Assembly: GCF_026248685.1 (NCBI RefSeq)
Contig: NZ_CP111036.1
Coordinates: forward strand, 62,001 to 126,000
DNA length: 64,000 bases
Source of the DNA: Haladaptatus caseinilyticus
Lineage (GTDB): Archaea > Halobacteriota > Halobacteria > Halobacteriales > Haladaptataceae
Direction: 5' to 3'
The notes under the pieces were generated by a model. It was not told the DNA's origin and made no database searches. It saw only the letters and a program-made list of their open reading frames with translations. Shown in pieces: positions 53,561 to 63,720 of the stretch (position 1 is the stretch's first letter; every line of letters begins with the position of its first letter). The position numbers were made by a program, and so were the translations under genes.

Positions 53561-53637
53561 TGTCGGGGAGATAGACACGGGGGGCTAAAAGCCCCACCTT
53601 TTCCTCTCGGATTTCCGAACCGGACAATCCATAGATG

Positions 53638-53644
53638 TTTAAAA
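53638..53644 (+). promoter_or_regulatory. TATA box of the second GT2 gene
   Basis: TTTAAAA lies 21-27 bases before ATG 53665 and immediately after the in-frame ATG 53635, so the later ATG is the better start. Confidence 0.55.
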
Positions 53645-53664
53645 CGAACCGCCCAACCACCGAT

Positions 53665-54807
53665 ATGAACCGGCTTGCGAAAGCGTCCGCGGTCGTTATC
53701 GCGGTCGCCGCAGTTCCGTATTTCGTGTTTCTCGCATTGTACGGGTTGATACGCCCGTCGGGGTCACCCGCACGGAAACGGGACGATAAACCGAGCGTGA
53801 GTATCGTGCTTCCGACGTACAACGAAGCGGACATCATCGAGAAAAAACTGGACGACCTTCTCGAACTGGACTACCCGATGGAAGCGATCGAACTCGTCGT
53901 CGTCGATTCGAGCGACGACGAGACCCCCTACCTGATTCGTGACTATCTCGCCGACCACGAACACCCGTCGTTGAATCTCATCGAAGAGGAGGAGCGCCGC
54001 GGCCTCGCTCCTGCGCTCAACGACGCCTACGCCGCGGCAGCAAACGAGATGGTGGTCAAAACCGACTGCGACTCGTTCGTGGCGAACGACGCGCTCCACG
54101 TTGCGGCGACGAACCTCGCAGACCCGGACGTCGCTGCAGTGACCGGGCAGAACGCCGAAGTGCTCGGCGGGAGCGAAGTCGAGGAAGGGTACCGCGGCAT
54201 ACAGGCCCATATCCAGACGCTCGAATCCCACCTCGATTCGACGCTCATCTTCCACGGTCCGTTCTCGGCGTTCGAAAACGACGCCATCGTTCCTCTCGAC
54301 CCGAACTCGCTCGCGGACGATACCGAACTCGCACTGAAGATACGTCGCAACGGAAAGCGTGTCGTCTTCGACCCGAACATCCGGTACAGCGAGGCATCCC
54401 ACTCCGATTTCACGAAGCGCAGATTGCAGAAAGACCGGCGTGGAATGGGGTTGATTCGACTGTTGGTGCAACATCGGGATGCACTCGGCCGGTATGGAAA
54501 GTACGGTGGGCTCGTACTTCCGTTCAACTGGTGGTTCATGATCGTCTCGCCGTGGCTGGTGGCGCTGTCGATCGGGCTGTTGACGGGCGCTGCGCTGGTT
54601 GCGGCCGGGCCGTTCGGGCTCGTCGTTCCTGCAGGGCTCGGGCTGTTCGTTCGACTGGGCGGGAGTGATCGGTTGGGTTCGCTGCAACCGTTGTACGCTA
54701 TTTTCGACGCGCAAGTCTCGTTGTTCCGAGCCAGCCTGGAGTTGTTGCGCGGAGACGGTGATGGGACATGGGAGATCGATGAAGAACTGCGGGAAGCTTT
54801 TGAGTAA
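53665..54807 (+). CDS. Membrane GT2 glycosyltransferase
   Basis: A 380-residue glycosyltransferase. An N-terminal membrane segment (VVIAVAAVPYFVFLALYGLI) is followed by the GT-A domain: SVSIVLPTYNEADIIEKKLD, VVVDSSDDETPYLI, VKTDCDSFVANDAL (D-C-D metal motif), VTGQNAEVLGGSE, then FENDAIVPLDPNSLADDTEL and a basic RRLQKDRRGMGL (Q/RxxRR-like). Two or three C-terminal membrane helices complete it. It is a processive-GT2-type layout, probably acting on a lipid carrier. It lies next to aglJ. Confidence 0.88.
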   Translation: MNRLAKASAVVIAVAAVPYFVFLALYGLIRPSGSPARKRDDKPSVSIVLPTYNEADIIEKKLDDLLELDYPMEAIELVVVDSSDDETPYLIRDYLADHEHPSLNLIEEEERRGLAPALNDAYAAAANEMVVKTDCDSFVANDALHVAATNLADPDVAAVTGQNAEVLGGSEVEEGYRGIQAHIQTLESHLDSTLIFHGPFSAFENDAIVPLDPNSLADDTELALKIRRNGKRVVFDPNIRYSEASHSDFTKRRLQKDRRGMGLIRLLVQHRDALGRYGKYGGLVLPFNWWFMIVSPWLVALSIGLLTGAALVAAGPFGLVVPAGLGLFVRLGGSDRLGSLQPLYAIFDAQVSLFRASLELLRGDGDGTWEIDEELREAFE

Positions 54808-54903
54808 ACACGATACTGAATAACTGTGTCATTTCACCCGATACTTTGAGTGAAGTGAGTGAGAAAGCTTATGTATTCAAAGAGGACTGAAAGGTCATAA
54901 GGA

Positions 54904-56025
54904 ATGTCGGATGATTCACCCTCGGTCGCTATCCTGCACGATCGATTTCCGCAAATCGGCGGCGGCGAGAAGTTCGCCATCGAGGCGGCCCGGACGCTTG
55001 ATGCGCCGATTTACACGATGTACGTCTATCCTGGAACAGAGATTCCGGATGATGTACGTGTTGTTCCGATCAAACAAGGGAAGTACGCACGAGGGTTGTC
55101 GAAACATATCCTGGCGTGGAAAAACGAAGGGTCGAACCCACTAGAGACACTCTCCGTGGCGATGGATATGACCGACGCACATCCAGAACTCACTGAATAC
55201 GATGTAATTCTGGGGAGTGCTCCGTTGTCCAAGCATTATATTCCGACAGTCGATCAGACGATTATTCACTATCCACATAGTCCGCCTCGGTGGTTGTACG
55301 ACCTTTATCGTGATCGAATGGAATCGTTCGACTATCCTGGTGTTCGTTTCGTGTTGAAAGCCTACGCGAAGTGGTGGCGCGCACTGGACAAGGAAGCGAA
55401 CGACTACGTGGACACATTTGTCGCAAATAGCGAACTCATCCGCGACCGAATTCGACGATACTATCATCGCGACGCGGAAGTCGTCTATCCCCCCGTCACC
55501 GGTGATTGGCGCAACGAAGGCGACGAGGGCTATTTTGTGACGTGGTCACGACTCGCTCCGGAAAAAAGGATGCCGCTCCTTGCGGAGGCGTTCACCGAAT
55601 TGGATGAACGCCTTATCATCGCCGGGGATGGTGCAGATAGGGAGAAAGTCGAACGCATCGCACGTGATCACGATAACATCGAGATACTGGGATTCGTAGA
55701 GGATATCGAGTCGCTCGTTGCTCGTTCGACAGGTGTGATTTACGCACCAGTGCAGGAAGACTTCGGACTCGTAGGTGCGGAGGCATTGATGGCTGGAAAG
55801 CCGCTCCTTGGCGTAAATGAGGGTTTTACGAAGTATCAGGTCGAGGAAGGTGTGACTGGCGAGTTGTTTGAACCGGCGGTTGAATCGATTCGAGATGAAG
55901 TCCGGAAATTCGATTCGGGCAAGTATGACTGCGATGTGATTCAGAAGTATGCTGAAAAATACCGACATGATGCGTTTCAAGAAGGACTTCAAAACGTCGC
56001 CGGATATGTTCCCGAGGATGAATGA
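54904..56025 (+). CDS. GT4 family glycosyltransferase
   Basis: A 373-residue GT-B enzyme. It starts VAILHDRFPQIGGGEKFAIE (G-G-x-E-K opening), has FVANSELIRDRIRRYYHRDA, VVYPPVTGDW and the donor-site motif WSRLAPEKRMPLLAEAF, with a C-terminal E-x7-E-like APVQEDFGLVGAEALMAGKP. The gene begins the AT-richer stretch of the agl locus. Its 3' end overlaps the next GT gene by 4 bases. The sugar is not predictable. Confidence 0.9.
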   Translation: MSDDSPSVAILHDRFPQIGGGEKFAIEAARTLDAPIYTMYVYPGTEIPDDVRVVPIKQGKYARGLSKHILAWKNEGSNPLETLSVAMDMTDAHPELTEYDVILGSAPLSKHYIPTVDQTIIHYPHSPPRWLYDLYRDRMESFDYPGVRFVLKAYAKWWRALDKEANDYVDTFVANSELIRDRIRRYYHRDAEVVYPPVTGDWRNEGDEGYFVTWSRLAPEKRMPLLAEAFTELDERLIIAGDGADREKVERIARDHDNIEILGFVEDIESLVARSTGVIYAPVQEDFGLVGAEALMAGKPLLGVNEGFTKYQVEEGVTGELFEPAVESIRDEVRKFDSGKYDCDVIQKYAEKYRHDAFQEGLQNVAGYVPEDE

Positions 56026-56705
56026 CGATTGAAAAACCCATTTCGTCCGATAAGCCGATAATTTCTGTCGTTATACCGACAATTCCGTCGAATAGTCACA
56101 CGGATGTCATCGAGTGTCTCGAAACACAAACGATGAATTCATTCGAAGTCATCGTGGTAAACGATGCGAACCTCGATATCTGTGAAGCACGAAACGCCGG
56201 TATCAAGGTTGCTTCCGGTGACGTGGTAGCACTCACTGATGACGACTGTCGACCGGGTCCAGAGTGGTTAACGAACATCTGGACGGAATTTGAGAGGAAT
56301 TCGGATCTCGTCTGTTTGGAAGGGGCAGTACAAGGAGGACGAACTTATACGGGAACGCGAAAATATGTAGGATGTAACCTTTCGTTTGACCGTGAGACGG
56401 CGCTCATGATTGGAGGATTTCGAAGCGAATATGCTGGATGGCGAGATGACACCGAATTCGGTTGGCGAATGGAGCGGGACACAGATGGTCGCAGTCAGTT
56501 TTGTGCCGCAGTCCGGATGAGCCATCCGGACCATCCCCGCGCAAATATCGACGAAGATCTCGAACGGAAACTCAGAGCAGAGTATCCAATTCGATATAAA
56601 AAAATCCTTGTTCCAGATACAATTATCGGCAAACTGAATGACTGGCTCTGGAGGCGCGGAATTTGGGATTACGTCGACAGCGCTAGAGACGGAGGATTGA
56701 AATAA
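56022..56705 (+). CDS. GT2 family glycosyltransferase
   Basis: A 227-residue GT-A enzyme. PIISVVIPTIPSNSHTDVIE, VVNDANLDICEARNAGIKVA, VVALTDDDCRPGPEWLTNIW (D-D-D/C metal motif), and GWRDDTEFGWRME (ED/DDTE acidic catalytic region). There are no membrane segments, so it would act on a membrane-bound acceptor from the cytosol. It overlaps the preceding gene by 4 bases and shares one base with the next start. AT-rich compared with aglJ. Confidence 0.88.
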   Translation: MTIEKPISSDKPIISVVIPTIPSNSHTDVIECLETQTMNSFEVIVVNDANLDICEARNAGIKVASGDVVALTDDDCRPGPEWLTNIWTEFERNSDLVCLEGAVQGGRTYTGTRKYVGCNLSFDRETALMIGGFRSEYAGWRDDTEFGWRMERDTDGRSQFCAAVRMSHPDHPRANIDEDLERKLRAEYPIRYKKILVPDTIIGKLNDWLWRRGIWDYVDSARDGGLK

Positions 56706-58021
56706 TGACAAATATAGCAGTAGTCGTTCTGGATACGCTCCGAAAGGACGCATTCGATAAACATTTCGAATGGCTGCCGGGGAAACGTTTCGAGAATGCA
56801 TGGAGTACCAGCCACTGGACAGTACCGGCACATGGGTCGCTATTTACCGGCAAATATGCGAGCGAGGCTGGTGTCTATAGGCATGCAGAAATGCTTAATT
56901 GCGATGATTCTGTTCTTGCGGAACGCCTTCGTAACACAGGATATACCACACGAGCGTTCAGCGGAAACCCAAATATCTCACGACAGTTCGAGTTCCATCG
57001 CGGGTTCAGCCAGTTTGAAGGGAGTTGGCGACTTCAGGCAATAGACCGAAATCTGTTCGATTGGGACAAATTCATTGCAAAGACCGAACGAATGGGTCCA
57101 CAACGGTTTCCGCTCGCGCTCTGGAAATGCATTAGCGGCGACTGCAGTACAGTACCGTCGTTGCGGCGGGGAGTCATTCTTAAGCTCCGTGATATGGGAT
57201 ACGGTAGCAAAAGCGTCGACGACGGTGCGCGTGAAGCACTATCGTTCGTCCAAGCTACCGAGTTCGGCGAACAGGAATTCCTATTTTTGAATCTAATGGA
57301 AGCGCACTCCCCGTACTCCGCTCCAGAGGAGTATCAAACCGTGACACCGCCGAATATCAGTGGTTTGAATGCGACAATGGATGAACCCACAGACGACCCG
57401 GACCGAATACGCCAAGCGTACGACGACGAGGTCAGATATCTGTCCAATATGTACAGAAGGATATTTGAGGAGTTGAAAAAAGAGTTCTCAGTTATTATCA
57501 CGCTAAGCGACCACGGAGAACTGCTGGGGGAACACGACGCCTGGGAACACATGTACGGGATCTATCCCGAGCTGACTCATGTCCCTCTGTGCGTGTACAA
57601 GGGGGAGAACGATACGACCTCCAGTGATGAGACGGTCAGCATTCTAGACGTCCACAGGACAGTTCTAGAAGTAGCAAAAATCGATGCCGATAGCCGTGGT
57701 CGTGACCTCCGAAAGCCAATCGAAGCAAGGGAGGTTCTTACCGAGTATCACGGCCTTTCTGATCGTCATTACTATGCTTTGAAAAATAATGGATACGAGG
57801 ACATCGACTATCTCAAAACCGAACTGCGTGGTTTCGCAAAGGATGGGTATTACGGACATCAAACGTTCGATGGGTTCGAAGAACACGGGAGTGGAGTAGA
57901 AGGGGACCCACGCGATCGACTCAAAGACCTCATAACACAACTTGCCGTGATAGAGACACGAGACGACGTCGACCTTTCGGATTCGGTGAAACAACAGTTG
58001 GAAGATTTGGGATACGCCTAA
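56705..58021 (+). CDS. Sulfatase-like hydrolase/transferase lacking the formylglycine motif
   Basis: A 438-residue alkaline-phosphatase-superfamily enzyme. Metal-binding IAVVVLDTLRKDAF at the N-terminus (D10), then WTVPAHGSLFTGKYASEAG. In sulfatases this position reads C/S-x-P-x-R; here it is T39-V-P-A-H43, so no formylglycine can form, and a Thr nucleophile as in phospho-transferases/phosphodiesterases is more likely. A second metal site is seen in VIITLSDHGELLGEHDAWEH. Its location in the glycosylation cluster suggests modification of a glycan or lipid-linked sugar, perhaps with a phospho group (inference). Confidence 0.85.
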   Translation: MTNIAVVVLDTLRKDAFDKHFEWLPGKRFENAWSTSHWTVPAHGSLFTGKYASEAGVYRHAEMLNCDDSVLAERLRNTGYTTRAFSGNPNISRQFEFHRGFSQFEGSWRLQAIDRNLFDWDKFIAKTERMGPQRFPLALWKCISGDCSTVPSLRRGVILKLRDMGYGSKSVDDGAREALSFVQATEFGEQEFLFLNLMEAHSPYSAPEEYQTVTPPNISGLNATMDEPTDDPDRIRQAYDDEVRYLSNMYRRIFEELKKEFSVIITLSDHGELLGEHDAWEHMYGIYPELTHVPLCVYKGENDTTSSDETVSILDVHRTVLEVAKIDADSRGRDLRKPIEAREVLTEYHGLSDRHYYALKNNGYEDIDYLKTELRGFAKDGYYGHQTFDGFEEHGSGVEGDPRDRLKDLITQLAVIETRDDVDLSDSVKQQLEDLGYA

Positions 58022-58040
58022 AACTGACAATATATTCAAC

Positions 58041-59513
58041 ATGTCGACAGACGCATCCGAAGTCAGCTTTGGCGGTGAAACGGTAAACGCAACAGTTGCC
58101 AAGTTCGCAATGGCGGCGAGTGGGTTCGTGGGGACCATCCTATTTGCCCGATTGCTCGATCCCACGTTGTTAGGCGGGTTTTACCTGCTTCTGGGGTTAG
58201 TGAAAATAGCGGACAGACCGATCCATGGATGGGCAATCGCCGCAAAAAAGCGATTTTCGGAGCACGATGTTCGGGATGAGTCTATCGTGGGCGCACAAAT
58301 CGTATTCATTATAGTTTGGCTCGTTTTCGTCGCCGCAATCTCGTTTTTCCTCTCTGGTTGGTTGAGAGAATATACGAAACTGACGACCGCACCGCTATTA
58401 TTTCTGCTCCTCTTAGCGTCCGAACCGCTGTACGAACCCTTCGAAAAGTTGCTACAGGCACGTGGTCAAATCGGTGTTGCCACTTGGCTCGATACGCTTC
58501 GCTCCTATCTCACGCTGCCATTTCAGATTTGGTTAGTTCTCGCCGGTTTCGGTACAGCAGGACTAGTTTATGGATTGGCTGGTGCAACCGTGTTATCCCT
58601 TCCTGCGATATTCTATTATCTTCACACACCGCCGGCTCTTCCCACGATATCCGTTCTGCGAAGTCTTTGGCGATATGCCAAATATAGCGTTCCATCGAGT
58701 TTCTTCGGCACTATCTACGACCGGTTCGACGTATTGTTACTCGGTCTACTGCTGACGCCGACCGCCGCGGGATATTACGAGGTTGCTGCGAAACTAACGC
58801 TTCCCGCGATATTCGTCGGCAACGCCGCCGCCAGCGGGTTGATGGCACGTGTGAGCAACCGTCGAAGTAAGAACCAGGACGTTTCGGCGGATGTGTATAA
58901 TGCCTTGTCGTTTACGAGCATACTCGCTATTCCAATATTTTTCGGGGCACTTGCCCTGTCACAATCTCTAGTCGTTACGTTTTATGGACCGAGGTATGCA
59001 CCGGCAGGAGCGTTACTGATCTTTATCGCTGCCTACCGCTTGCTTAAATCCCAGAATGCACCCCTCACACAGACTATAAACGGGTTGAATAGTCCGGAGA
59101 CTACGATGCGTATTTCGGCTGGCACGCTCGCGATCAACATCGTTCTAGGTGTAGTATTGGTACTACAGATTGGAGCAGTCGGGGTCGCTGTTGCCACGTT
59201 AATTGCCGAAGGCGCACGCTATCTATCGCTTTTGACGGTAGTTCGAGGGCGCATCCCCGGCGTTAGATTCCTCCCCCGGACACTTCTGGAACAGTTCAGC
59301 GCCGGAGTGATCATGTTTCTCATCGTTTCATTGGCTCATCGAATAGTTCCCGTTCGGTCGTGGCCTGACCTCTTCACGTTGCTCGCTATCGGCGCAGCTA
59401 TCTATATATTGACACTCCTTCTCGTCAGCTCGCGATTACGACAAACAATCGGAAGCGTTCTTCGTGGCTCCCAAATCGAACGGTTTGTGCCACATCAAAT
59501 ATTGGACTGGTGA
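58041..59513 (+). CDS. Wzx-type flippase (polysaccharide/oligosaccharide exporter)
   Basis: A 490-residue polytopic protein with 12-14 hydrophobic segments (e.g. FAMAASGFVGTILFARLLDP, LSLPAIFYYLHTPP, LAIPIFFGALALSQSLVVTF, INIVLGVVLVLQIGAVGVAV), the MATE/MOP flippase pattern including LARLLDPTLLGGFYLLLGLV. It probably flips the lipid-linked glycan to the outer face, as AglR is thought to in Haloferax. It starts 19 bases after the sulfatase-like gene and is the last gene of the AT-rich island before aglB. Confidence 0.9.
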   Translation: MSTDASEVSFGGETVNATVAKFAMAASGFVGTILFARLLDPTLLGGFYLLLGLVKIADRPIHGWAIAAKKRFSEHDVRDESIVGAQIVFIIVWLVFVAAISFFLSGWLREYTKLTTAPLLFLLLLASEPLYEPFEKLLQARGQIGVATWLDTLRSYLTLPFQIWLVLAGFGTAGLVYGLAGATVLSLPAIFYYLHTPPALPTISVLRSLWRYAKYSVPSSFFGTIYDRFDVLLLGLLLTPTAAGYYEVAAKLTLPAIFVGNAAASGLMARVSNRRSKNQDVSADVYNALSFTSILAIPIFFGALALSQSLVVTFYGPRYAPAGALLIFIAAYRLLKSQNAPLTQTINGLNSPETTMRISAGTLAINIVLGVVLVLQIGAVGVAVATLIAEGARYLSLLTVVRGRIPGVRFLPRTLLEQFSAGVIMFLIVSLAHRIVPVRSWPDLFTLLAIGAAIYILTLLLVSSRLRQTIGSVLRGSQIERFVPHQILDW

Positions 59514-59574: not shown

Positions 59575-62500
59575 ATGAGCCAAGGTACAGAACAGGTCGA
59601 GGAATCCTCCAATATCGCCGATTCCGTCCTCGATCAGATAGAAGACTGGTATCATGTCCCTGCACTCGCACTTCTGTTGGGATTCATGTTGTGGGTACGG
59701 CTGCAATCCTACGACAGATTCATCGTCAACGGAGAGGTATTTTTCTCCGGAAACGACGCGTGGTACCACCTCCGTCAAGTACAGTATACAGTCAACAACT
59801 GGCCCGCGACGATGCCGTTCGATCCGTGGACGTTCTATCCCTTCGGAACGAGTGTCGGTCAGTTCGGCACGCTCTATGACCAACTCGTCGCTACTGCCGC
59901 GCTGATCGTCGGCCTCGGCGACCCATCGCAGAAAACGGTCGCACTGACGCTATTGGTTGCTCCAGCAGTGTTCGGAACGCTCGTCGCCATCCCGACCTAC
60001 TTCGTCGGAAAGCGACTTGGCGGCCGTCTCGGCGGGCTATTCGGAGTTCTCGTGCTGGTACTGATTCCGGGCGAGTTCCTCCGTCGTGGCTTGGTCGGGT
60101 TCTCCGACCACAACATCGTCGAGCCGTTCTTCCAGACGCTCGCCGTGCTGGCGATGATGGTTGCGGTCTCCGTCGCCGAACGGGAACGTCCGGTTTTCGA
60201 ACTGCTGGCTGACCGTGATTTCGACTCGGTTCGCCGGCCGCTAGGATATAGCGTTCTCGCGGGTATCGCGACCGCTCTCTACCTTTGGACGTGGCCTCCG
60301 GGCGTCCTCCTCATCGGTATTTTCGGCGTATTCTTCCTGCTGAAACTGACCGCGGACTACGTTCGTGGTATCAGCCCGGACCACCTCGCGTTCGTCGCGT
60401 CGGTCAGCATGGGCGTGACGGGACTCCTCTTGTTCGTTCCGCTCGGAACCGTTTCGTTCAGCGCGACGAAGTTCTCCCTGCTCCAACCGTTCATGGCCTT
60501 CGCCATTTCCGTCGGCGCAGGGTTCATGACGTGGCTGGCCCGTGAGTGGGACGACCGTGACCTCTCGACGGCGCTCTATCCCGTTGCAATCTTTGGGATT
60601 CTCGCCGTGGGTACGCTCGTCGTCTACGTCGCGCTTCCGAGGTTGTTCGGCCTCATTCAAACCAACCTCGTCAGGTTTGTCGGGTTCAACGCGGGCGCGG
60701 CCCAGCGGACCATCGGTGAAGCACAACCGTTCTTGCAGAGTGGACAGTCGCTCGCGTCTGCGGTCATCCCACAGTACGGCCTGACCTTCTTCACCGCCAT
60801 CATCGGCGCGCTGGTGATGGTTTGGCGTTCCGTTTCGGCCGACGAGCACCAAGCCGAAAAGCTTCTCGTGCTGGTTTGGGCGGCCTTCATCACGGCCGCC
60901 GCGTTCACACAGGTTCGATTTAACTACTACCTCGCCGTTCCGGTCGCGGTGCTGAACGCCTACCTCCTCGGCTGGGTTCTCGGCTTCGTCGGATTCGACA
61001 GTTCGTCGCGTGAAGCGATTCAGAACGTCGAAATCTACCAGGTGCTGGCAGTCGTTTTCGTCATCATGCTCGTTATCCCGGGACTGGTCATGCCCGTCCA
61101 GGTGGGTAATACGCGGACGGCAACCGCGACCCAGATGGGTAACAGCACTGCTCCCGGCGACGTGACGCAGTGGGATGGCACTCTGAACTGGATGCAGACG
61201 AACACGCCGCAGGAAGGCAACTACGGCGGTGCCGGAAACTCGATGAAGTATTACGGCACCTACACCGAAGATGACGGTGATTACGACTATCCAAAGGGAA
61301 GCTACGGCGTCATGTCGTGGTGGGACTACGGTCACTGGATTACGGTCGAAGGTGAGCGGATCCCGAACGCCAATCCGTTCCAGGAGGGCGCGATCACGGC
61401 CGCGAACTACCTGCTCGCCCAGAACGAGTCCGAGGCAAATCAAATCCTGAACACCCTCGGCGATAAGAGCGAGCAGACGCGCTACGTCATGGTCGATTGG
61501 AAGATGGTCGAAACCCGTGGACGATCGGGTAACGCGAAGTTCTTCGCGCCGACGGTGTTCAACAAAAACGTCTCACAATCGACGTTCACCGACTACATCG
61601 TGCTCGGACAGAACCAGTATATCGTACAACACAAACAGCCGTACTACGAGAGCATGATGGTTCGACTGTACCAGTATCACGGGAGCGCGGTCGAGCCGAA
61701 ACCCATCGTTCTCGACTGGAATTCTCAATCCTATCGACAGAACGGTCAGACGCTATCGTACAAGACGGCACCGCCGAACGCGACCGTCGTGAAAAAGTTC
61801 GATACGATGCAGGAGGCCAGAGAGTACGTCAAAAACGATCCGACGTCACAGATCGGCGGAATCGGACCGTATCCGAGCGAGCGCGTTCCGGCGCTCGAAC
61901 ACTACCGCGTCGTGAAAGAGAGTCAATCACAGGCGACACAAGACCCGTCGCACGTTCAGATCCTCCGTCAGCGACTGGGGCTGCTCCAACAGGCGGGAGC
62001 TACGGGGCAGGATTACTTCCGTACTTCGCCATCGTGGGTGAAGGCGTTCGAACGAGTCCCCGGTGCGACGGTGAAGGGGACGGGCCCGGCTAACACTACC
62101 ATCACGGCCTCCGTGCAGATGAAAGCGGACACGGGAAGCACGTTCACTTACACGCAGAAAGCCAAGACGGACGGCAATGGTGAGTTCACGATGACCGTGC
62201 CGTACTCCACGACGGGCTACGATGAATGGGGAACAGAGAAGGGGTACACGAACGTCAGCGTCCGCGCAACCGGTCCGTACGAGTTCCGAACGCCGACGAA
62301 GGCCGGTGGCGATGGGTTCCAGTTCACCAACGGAACGGCACAGGTCTCGGAAGGACAAGTGCTCGGCGAGAACGATAACCCCGTCACGGTCTCGGTTGAC
62401 CAGCAGCAGACGATTCCGGTCGAAGGCGCGAACAACTCCACCGGAAACGACTCCGCAGGCCCAACGATGCCCGGCAACGGAACGAACGGCAACTCGTCCG

Positions 62501-62634
62501 CCGGAAACGGGTCGGTCGGTAACAACTCGACGGGTAACGAGTCGAATTCGCTTCCCAGCCCTGCATCGCCCTTGACCCGAGTCGGCCTCGTCGGTGCATA
62601 CGCCGCAACGTTGGTCGTCGCACGCCGCGACTGA
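59575..62634 (+). CDS. aglB: Dolichyl-phosphooligosaccharide-protein glycotransferase AglB
   Basis: Oligosaccharyltransferase that transfers the glycan from dolichol phosphate to Asn-x-Ser/Thr of surface proteins. In this 1019-residue protein, about 13 transmembrane segments fill residues 20-515, with the first external loop DAWYHLRQVQYTV and FPYGTS-like FDPWTFYPFGTS carrying metal and acceptor residues. The catalytic WWDYG is at 582-586. The C-terminal globular domain has beta-sandwich segments, then a Gly/Asn/Ser-rich tail (about 970-995) with a final hydrophobic helix RVGLVGAYAATLVVA. Full haloarchaeal length. Confidence 0.96.
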   Translation: MSQGTEQVEESSNIADSVLDQIEDWYHVPALALLLGFMLWVRLQSYDRFIVNGEVFFSGNDAWYHLRQVQYTVNNWPATMPFDPWTFYPFGTSVGQFGTLYDQLVATAALIVGLGDPSQKTVALTLLVAPAVFGTLVAIPTYFVGKRLGGRLGGLFGVLVLVLIPGEFLRRGLVGFSDHNIVEPFFQTLAVLAMMVAVSVAERERPVFELLADRDFDSVRRPLGYSVLAGIATALYLWTWPPGVLLIGIFGVFFLLKLTADYVRGISPDHLAFVASVSMGVTGLLLFVPLGTVSFSATKFSLLQPFMAFAISVGAGFMTWLAREWDDRDLSTALYPVAIFGILAVGTLVVYVALPRLFGLIQTNLVRFVGFNAGAAQRTIGEAQPFLQSGQSLASAVIPQYGLTFFTAIIGALVMVWRSVSADEHQAEKLLVLVWAAFITAAAFTQVRFNYYLAVPVAVLNAYLLGWVLGFVGFDSSSREAIQNVEIYQVLAVVFVIMLVIPGLVMPVQVGNTRTATATQMGNSTAPGDVTQWDGTLNWMQTNTPQEGNYGGAGNSMKYYGTYTEDDGDYDYPKGSYGVMSWWDYGHWITVEGERIPNANPFQEGAITAANYLLAQNESEANQILNTLGDKSEQTRYVMVDWKMVETRGRSGNAKFFAPTVFNKNVSQSTFTDYIVLGQNQYIVQHKQPYYESMMVRLYQYHGSAVEPKPIVLDWNSQSYRQNGQTLSYKTAPPNATVVKKFDTMQEAREYVKNDPTSQIGGIGPYPSERVPALEHYRVVKESQSQATQDPSHVQILRQRLGLLQQAGATGQDYFRTSPSWVKAFERVPGATVKGTGPANTTITASVQMKADTGSTFTYTQKAKTDGNGEFTMTVPYSTTGYDEWGTEKGYTNVSVRATGPYEFRTPTKAGGDGFQFTNGTAQVSEGQVLGENDNPVTVSVDQQQTIPVEGANNSTGNDSAGPTMPGNGTNGNSSAGNGSVGNNSTGNESNSLPSPASPLTRVGLVGAYAATLVVARRD

Positions 62635-62706
62635 ACCGCCTTCGTTTCCGTCCTCTTTTAAACTCCTCCCCTATCCTCATATTCACGCCCCACGTAGCGA
62701 GGAACA

Positions 62707-63720
62707 GTGACGGGAGACGAGCGAGAACGCGCCGGTGTTGAAGACGGATGGGAATCGTTTTTTGGCTGGCCCGGAAACTCGGGAGCGATGCGTTCCCTGT
62801 TGACCATTTACCTAAAGGGCGTCTGTATGGGTGCCGCCGACGCGGTCCCCGGCGTCTCAGGCGGAACGATCGCCCTCATCACGGGGATTTACGAGCGACT
62901 CATCTCGGCAGTCGCGTCGTTCGATCCCAGAATCGTGACGAGTGCCCTCCAAGTCCACAAACCGGAAGAACGTGCGAAAGTTCGGGAGATGCTCGCGGAA
63001 ATGGATCTGCCGTTTCTGCTCGCGCTCGGTGCGGGGATCGCAACCGCGATCATGACCGTAACGGGATTAGTGACGGCCGCGAGCGAACGGGTTCCCGTGC
63101 TCCTCTTTGCGTTTTTCTTCGGCCTCATCGCGGCATCGGCTATCGTCCTCTACGACGAGGTTTCGGTCGAGACGCCGGGACAGGTCGGTGCTGCCATCGC
63201 GGGATTCGCTCTCGCGTTCTTCGTGGCCGGTGCAGTCGAGCAAGGTGGCGGGTCGCCACCACTGCCGCTCGTTTTTTTCACCGGCATGATTGCCATCAGC
63301 GCGATGGTGCTTCCGGGTATCTCCGGAGCGCTCATCCTCTATCTCCTCGGACAGTACGAGTACCTTTCGCGCAACCTGCATGGGTTCAAAGATGCCGTCG
63401 TGGCTCTGCTTGAGGGCGGCAGTTTTGACGCCCTCATCGCCTCCGGGACGGTCGTTATTACGTTCGTACTCGGCGCTGGTGTCGGCGTTTTGACGATCTC
63501 GAAAATCGTTTCGTGGGCGCTCGACCACTACCGGGCGGCGACGCTCACGTTCCTCGTTAGTCTGATGGTCGGCGCACTTCGGTTCCCAGTCGAGGAAATA
63601 TTCCGGGCAGATGCGTTCGCGTGGACGCCAACGGTACTCGGCAGTGCAGTCCTCGCGGCAATCGTCGGCGGCGGTGCGGTGCTCCTTCTCGACCGTTACA
63701 CCGACGACCTCGATTACTGA
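62707..63720 (+). CDS. DUF368/PopT-type polyprenyl-phosphate transporter
   Basis: A 337-residue membrane protein with the DUF368 signature LKGVCMGAADAVPGVSGGTI followed by LITGIYERLI, and a second inverted-repeat element MVLPGISGALILYLLGQYEY. About eight to ten membrane segments. Bacterial homologues (PopT) were reported to return undecaprenyl phosphate to the cytosolic face. Its position 73 bases after aglB, same direction, fits recycling of dolichol phosphate after glycan transfer (inference). The frame starts at GTG 62707; an internal ATG at 62788 is an alternative. Confidence 0.88.
   Translation: MTGDERERAGVEDGWESFFGWPGNSGAMRSLLTIYLKGVCMGAADAVPGVSGGTIALITGIYERLISAVASFDPRIVTSALQVHKPEERAKVREMLAEMDLPFLLALGAGIATAIMTVTGLVTAASERVPVLLFAFFFGLIAASAIVLYDEVSVETPGQVGAAIAGFALAFFVAGAVEQGGGSPPLPLVFFTGMIAISAMVLPGISGALILYLLGQYEYLSRNLHGFKDAVVALLEGGSFDALIASGTVVITFVLGAGVGVLTISKIVSWALDHYRAATLTFLVSLMVGALRFPVEEIFRADAFAWTPTVLGSAVLAAIVGGGAVLLLDRYTDDLDY

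Follow-up and report, generated by a model that had tools for sequence, protein, structure and literature searches.

Pairing of aglB with a DUF368 gene in Halobacteria: a candidate lipid-carrier recycling step in haloarchaeal N-glycosylation

Background

Bacterial mutants in DUF368 genes build up C55-P at the cell surface, and members of this family are regarded as candidate C55-P translocases (PMC9876793). The same study noted the enrichment of DUF368 in Halobacteria, named dolichol phosphate as an implication, and reported that the Haloferax volcanii homologue HVO_RS12060 partly complements a Vibrio cholerae mutant, a species in which DUF368 and DedA proteins are conditionally redundant (PMC9876793). 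The other system that concerns us here is haloarchaeal N-glycosylation. The donor glycans of the oligosaccharyltransferase AglB ride on dolichyl monophosphate in H. volcanii, one pyrophosphate-linked glycan has also been described in Halobacterium, and AglR has been implicated for dolichyl-phosphate mannose (PMC3871713). The described Haloferax agl cluster spans aglJ to aglM (PMC5867893). The open-access descriptions of archaeal N-glycosylation consulted here give no protein for the recycling of the lipid carrier, and DUF368 was not found as an Agl component in those pathway descriptions.

The aglB-DUF368 locus of Haladaptatus

We analysed a 64,000-nucleotide stretch of the Haladaptatus caseinilyticus genome (hereafter the window, whose own numbering is used throughout). 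An earlier note on this DNA had read positions 59575-63720 as aglB followed by a co-directional DUF368 gene, and both genes are confirmed there on the forward strand (TIGR04154, PF04018; Table 1). The first product scores 961 bits against TIGR04154 (archaeo_STT3, cut-off 450), exceeds the cut-off of each of PF02516 (STT3), PF22627 (AglB core) and PF18079 (AglB_L1), and carries GND at 59, DHNIVE at 178, WWDYG at 582 and DWK at 641, which we take to be the catalytic and sequon-binding motifs of the family.

Table 1. Features of the aglB-DUF368 region, in window positions
Feature	Position	Strand	Basis
GT2	53635-54807	+	Pfam match
GT4	54904-56025	+	Pfam match
GT2	56022-56705	+	Pfam match
Sulfatase-like protein	56705-58021	+	Pfam match
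Wzx/MATE-like polysaccharide flippase, 5' of aglB	58041-59513	+	PF13440, 4.5e-15
aglB, archaeal oligosaccharyltransferase, 1019 aa, ATG start	59575-62634	+	TIGR04154, PF02516, PF22627, PF18079
Intergenic gap aglB/DUF368, 72 bp, includes TTTTAAA	62635-62706	.	Stop-to-start distance
DUF368/VCA0040-like (PopT-type) membrane protein, 337 aa, GTG start	62707-63720	+	PF04018

The DUF368 protein matches PF04018 (VCA0040-like) with 210.2 bits against a gathering cut-off of 26, and the gene ending at 63720 is the single copy in the Haladaptatus genome. Its scores against the two NCBIfam equivalogs of the characterised PopT/VCA0040 set, NF052563 (79.1 bits) and NF052564 (184.9 bits), both fall below their cut-off of 400; on these profile scores it is classed as a member of the PF04018 family and not as a named PopT/VCA0040 equivalog. 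The protein consists of two homologous halves (BLASTP of one half against the other, E 9e-5), each with one PG(V/I)SG motif (P48-G49-V50-S51-G52 and P203-G204-I205-S206-G207), whose residues are mostly invariant in an alignment of 45 sequences. When aligned with bacterial and other archaeal sequences, the Haladaptatus protein retains the family-invariant positions; bacterial members, at about 36-42% identity, have these invariant motifs in common with it. In the AlphaFold2 model (pLDDT 88, pTM 0.83), the helix breaks contain both motifs. No relative was found in the PDB either by sequence (best E 0.31) or by fold (best E 0.056), and the nearest named relatives, at 82-87% identity, are from Haladaptatus itself.

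The Wzx/MATE-like protein encoded just 5' of aglB is a candidate for flipping the lipid-linked glycan outwards, and the sequence cluster to which it belongs has members close to aglB in 19 of the 64 genera. The glycan-assembly genes upstream of aglB have a G+C content of 0.50-0.55, compared with about 0.60 in the surrounding DNA. This low-G+C run (53635-59513) stops at aglB and looks like an exchangeable glycan island beside a conserved anchor.

Linkage across Halobacteria

Our survey covered 194 genomes of Halobacteria, each at least 90% complete; DUF368 was found in 192 of them, and a TIGR04154 match over the cut-off likewise in 192. Linkage, defined as DUF368 lying downstream of aglB and co-directional with it, was scored in the 191 genomes where both genes could be placed. 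It was found in 133 of them (123 within 800 bp, which we call adjacent, and 10 within 5 kb), no other close arrangement of the two genes occurred in any of the 191, and in the remaining 58 they are unlinked. The linked genomes cover 46 of the 64 genera and nine of the ten family codes. With position and strand taken as random, about 0.02 genomes (191 x 800 / (2 x 3.6 Mb)) would be expected to have the pair within 800 bp, against the 123 observed. Linkage is thus far above chance; given the shared ancestry of these genomes, the informative point is its retention amid the turnover of neighbouring genes, not the raw count. The haloarchaeal survey that the earlier note had proposed is therefore strongly positive, and a lack of conserved linkage is excluded.

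A few genomes deserve separate mention. At least one of those counted as unlinked may simply reflect an assembly break: in G162, aglB and DUF368 are on separate contigs, and 254 bases lie between DUF368 and a contig end. Neither gene was found in G187, a fragmentary assembly of 180 contigs. As far as the data go, G021 is a real exception to DUF368 retention: this 1.9 Mb, 98% complete genome has aglB (locus L045) and DedA and is devoid of DUF368. The reverse holds for G118, where DUF368 and DedA are present and a full-length TIGR04154 AglB is absent (best E 1.3e-22). In a second, named collection, every haloarchaeal DUF368 locus retrieved has an AglB match just upstream, a sample biased towards close relatives of the Haladaptatus protein that served as the query; it includes Halobacterium salinarum, whose strain DSM 3754 has a gap of 2 bp between the two genes.

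Clustering of all open frames in 70 aglB loci (64 genera) identified DUF368 as the most conserved neighbour of aglB, being present in 44 genera and downstream and co-directional in 47 of 47 loci. The runners-up, GT2 (36 genera), GT4 (32) and sulfatase (26), occur in either orientation and at no fixed distance. Across the 47 genus-level loci the median gap between aglB and DUF368 is 6 bp, with 24 loci at 6 bp or less and 15 in which the genes abut or overlap; since each gap is taken up to the earliest start codon that the frame allows, these values may be too low. The 24 gaps of at most 6 bp suggest that the two genes may share a single transcript. Gene order around the pair changes freely: G004 and G005, from the same genus, match in their downstream genes, and DUF368 lies next to aglB in G005 only. 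Where a gene intervenes between the two, it is in four of five loci (L040, L057, L098 and L108, on either strand) a UDP-glucose dehydrogenase of the AglM cluster, whose representative scores 754 bits against NF041297 (cut-off 670); aglM is itself an N-glycosylation gene. One locus with an intervening gene holds an extra nucleotidyltransferase-like gene.

On the 3' side of the pair, the opposite-strand genes for GlpA, GlpB and GlpC (anaerobic glycerol-3-phosphate dehydrogenase) persist in several families, for example at L032, L050 and L087.

Evolutionary history of the pair

In our DUF368 tree, which comes from a short search with SH-aLRT values as its only support, the Halobacteria form a single clade (support 100) whose base is held by linked copies. 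Most of the sampled unlinked copies (24/28) fall into one derived clade of f3 and f4 genomes (support 96) that branches from among linked copies of the f5 family (support 99); f3 is probably Haloarcula-like and f4 Natrialbaceae-like. Both DUF368 types co-occur in some genomes (G005, G107). AglB proteins of f3, f4 and f5 mostly group by family in the AglB tree. The simplest reading of these two trees would be that the linkage is ancestral in Halobacteria, and that a DUF368 gene of f5-like origin spread and took the place of the native one in some f3 and f4 lineages, their AglB staying native. As the native DUF368 would have been replaced by a xenologue in some lineages and AglB not, what connects the two proteins is probably a lipid pool that they share, rather than an obligate complex specific to AglB.

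The derived f5-like copies (L063, L064, L065 and other unlinked loci) sit at varying chromosomal sites, and no conserved context of unlinked DUF368 genes was found beyond small lineage-specific groups.

Outside the class, DUF368 occurs in only 28 of the roughly 165 other Halobacteriota genomes sampled, STT3 was found in 36 of the 39 tested, and the DNA surrounding 20 DUF368 loci of other Halobacteriota contained no AglB match. Since DUF368 is mostly missing there and the pairing was not found, this would be a haloarchaeal solution and not a general archaeal one. Two weaker cases were not counted as linkage. In family f29, STT3 lies 12-14 kb from DUF368 (three genomes), with chaperonin, TiaS, uracil phosphoribosyltransferase and permease genes around and between them; in Thermoplasmatota there are two loci only, with STT3 2-3 kb upstream and AMMECR1 and amidohydrolase genes between.

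The two Thermoplasmatota MAGs (L159:1362-11072 and L173:1196-11110) have a run of genes in common: PRPP synthetase, STT3, AMMECR1, amidohydrolase, DUF368, an inositol monophosphatase-like gene, a PcrB-like gene and a flavoprotein.

A role in carrier recycling

We propose that AglB would move the glycan from dolichyl phosphate onto asparagine at the outer face of the membrane, that dolichyl phosphate would thereby be left outside, and that the DUF368 protein would carry it back to the cytoplasmic face, where cytoplasmic glycosyltransferases would reload it. The earlier note had AglB leave dolichol phosphate or pyrophosphate; the monophosphate stands for H. volcanii and the pyrophosphate does not, though one such glycan is described from Halobacterium (PMC3871713). 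As the H. volcanii donor is a monophosphate, the product of AglB there would directly be dolichyl phosphate, and a pyrophosphatase would not be needed. We consider aglB and DUF368 to be, with a probability of roughly 0.7, an ancient haloarchaeal pair that joins the final N-glycosylation step to the resetting of its lipid carrier, DUF368 being the protein that returns dolichyl phosphate. The substrate, the inward direction of transport and the service to AglB in particular are all points that we infer; of the roles considered for the DUF368 gene, recycling for AglB has the best support, which comes from family function and gene context. A further-reaching reading, to which we would give even odds, is that haloarchaeal N-glycosylation has had DUF368 as its dedicated dolichyl-phosphate translocase from the ancestor onwards, which would make it an unrecognised Agl component; the xenologue swaps would then show that the step is needed and the partner not fixed.

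The 58 genomes that hold DUF368 apart from aglB, the ability of a xenologue to take over without a change of AglB, and the retention of DUF368 without a full-length AglB in G118 are what would be expected if the protein serves all dolichol-dependent glycans (glycolipids, exopolysaccharide, AglS-type mannosylation) and adjoins aglB as AglB is the largest consumer. Adjacency to aglB was, however, held class-wide while nearly all other neighbours changed, and we place such a general role slightly below an even chance. It extends the recycling role for AglB rather than contradicting it, and our confidences in the two overlap.

Less probable, though still a serious competitor, is a division of labour in which DedA does most of the haloarchaeal dolichyl-phosphate recycling and DUF368 is a conditional second translocase for high pH or high sodium. 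DedA (PF09335) is present in 194 of 194 Halobacteria genomes, with four copies in that of Haladaptatus, and also in control archaea that lack DUF368, and its conditional redundancy with DUF368 in V. cholerae (PMC9876793) fits such an arrangement. Yet the DedA family was not found among the labelled neighbour clusters around aglB, where DUF368 is fixed, and the retention of DUF368 in 192 of 194 genomes further argues against a dominant DedA. The suggestion of the earlier note that DUF368 is a candidate for the missing recycling step of archaeal N-glycosylation survives as the best-supported reading in Halobacteria, where the ubiquitous DedA is a rival; for archaea at large it fails as a general solution, given the many other Halobacteriota without DUF368.

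An outward flippase for the glycan-loaded lipid would also be at home beside the enzyme that consumes the flipped lipid, and a universal haloarchaeal flippase for lipid-linked glycans is not established (AglR is implicated for dolichyl-phosphate mannose; PMC3871713); we nevertheless think this role improbable for DUF368, as 19 genera have Wzx-like flippases close to aglB, the Haladaptatus locus included, and what the bacterial homologues handle is bare C55-P (PMC9876793). That the linkage is neutral leftover synteny devoid of functional meaning is the least credible explanation, for although a single ancestral event could account for every linked genome and the downstream GlpABC genes likewise persist in several families, in 44 genera DUF368 has kept its place, its orientation and its very small distance from aglB amid turnover on both sides, and lineages without it beside aglB still carry it elsewhere.

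The conserved linkage makes DUF368 the best candidate for carrier recycling, a role that would extend the bacterial finding on C55-P recycling to dolichyl phosphate. This is the lipid class used by eukaryotes. For Halobacterium and related genera, the pair offers a specific target that is often single-copy and accessible to genetics, and the xenologue-bearing lineages amount to natural replacement experiments. The DUF368 family and its probable activity were known already. We found no published link between aglB and DUF368 in the open-access literature, most subscription journals lying outside the search; within that literature the pairing, its ancestral status and the xenologue displacement appear to be unreported.

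Comparison with known systems

The DedA/UptA translocases (PF09335) have been put forward for this task in bacteria and are universal in Halobacteria; they differ from DUF368 in belonging to a separate Pfam family and in not being found as a conserved neighbour of aglB. The likeness to the haloarchaeal Agl pathway (AglB, AglM, AglF, AglJ and others) lies in the full AglB, in the variable glycosyltransferases and the flippase upstream of it, as in described agl clusters, and in the AglM-type genes that sometimes stand between aglB and DUF368. With the PF04018 translocases (DUF368/PopT/VCA0040), the Haladaptatus protein has in common its family match and the invariant motifs, and the H. volcanii member partly replaces its V. 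cholerae counterpart (PMC9876793). Compared with PopT and VCA0040, the lipid handled by the haloarchaeal protein would be dolichyl phosphate instead of C55-P, and its gene is tied to aglB.
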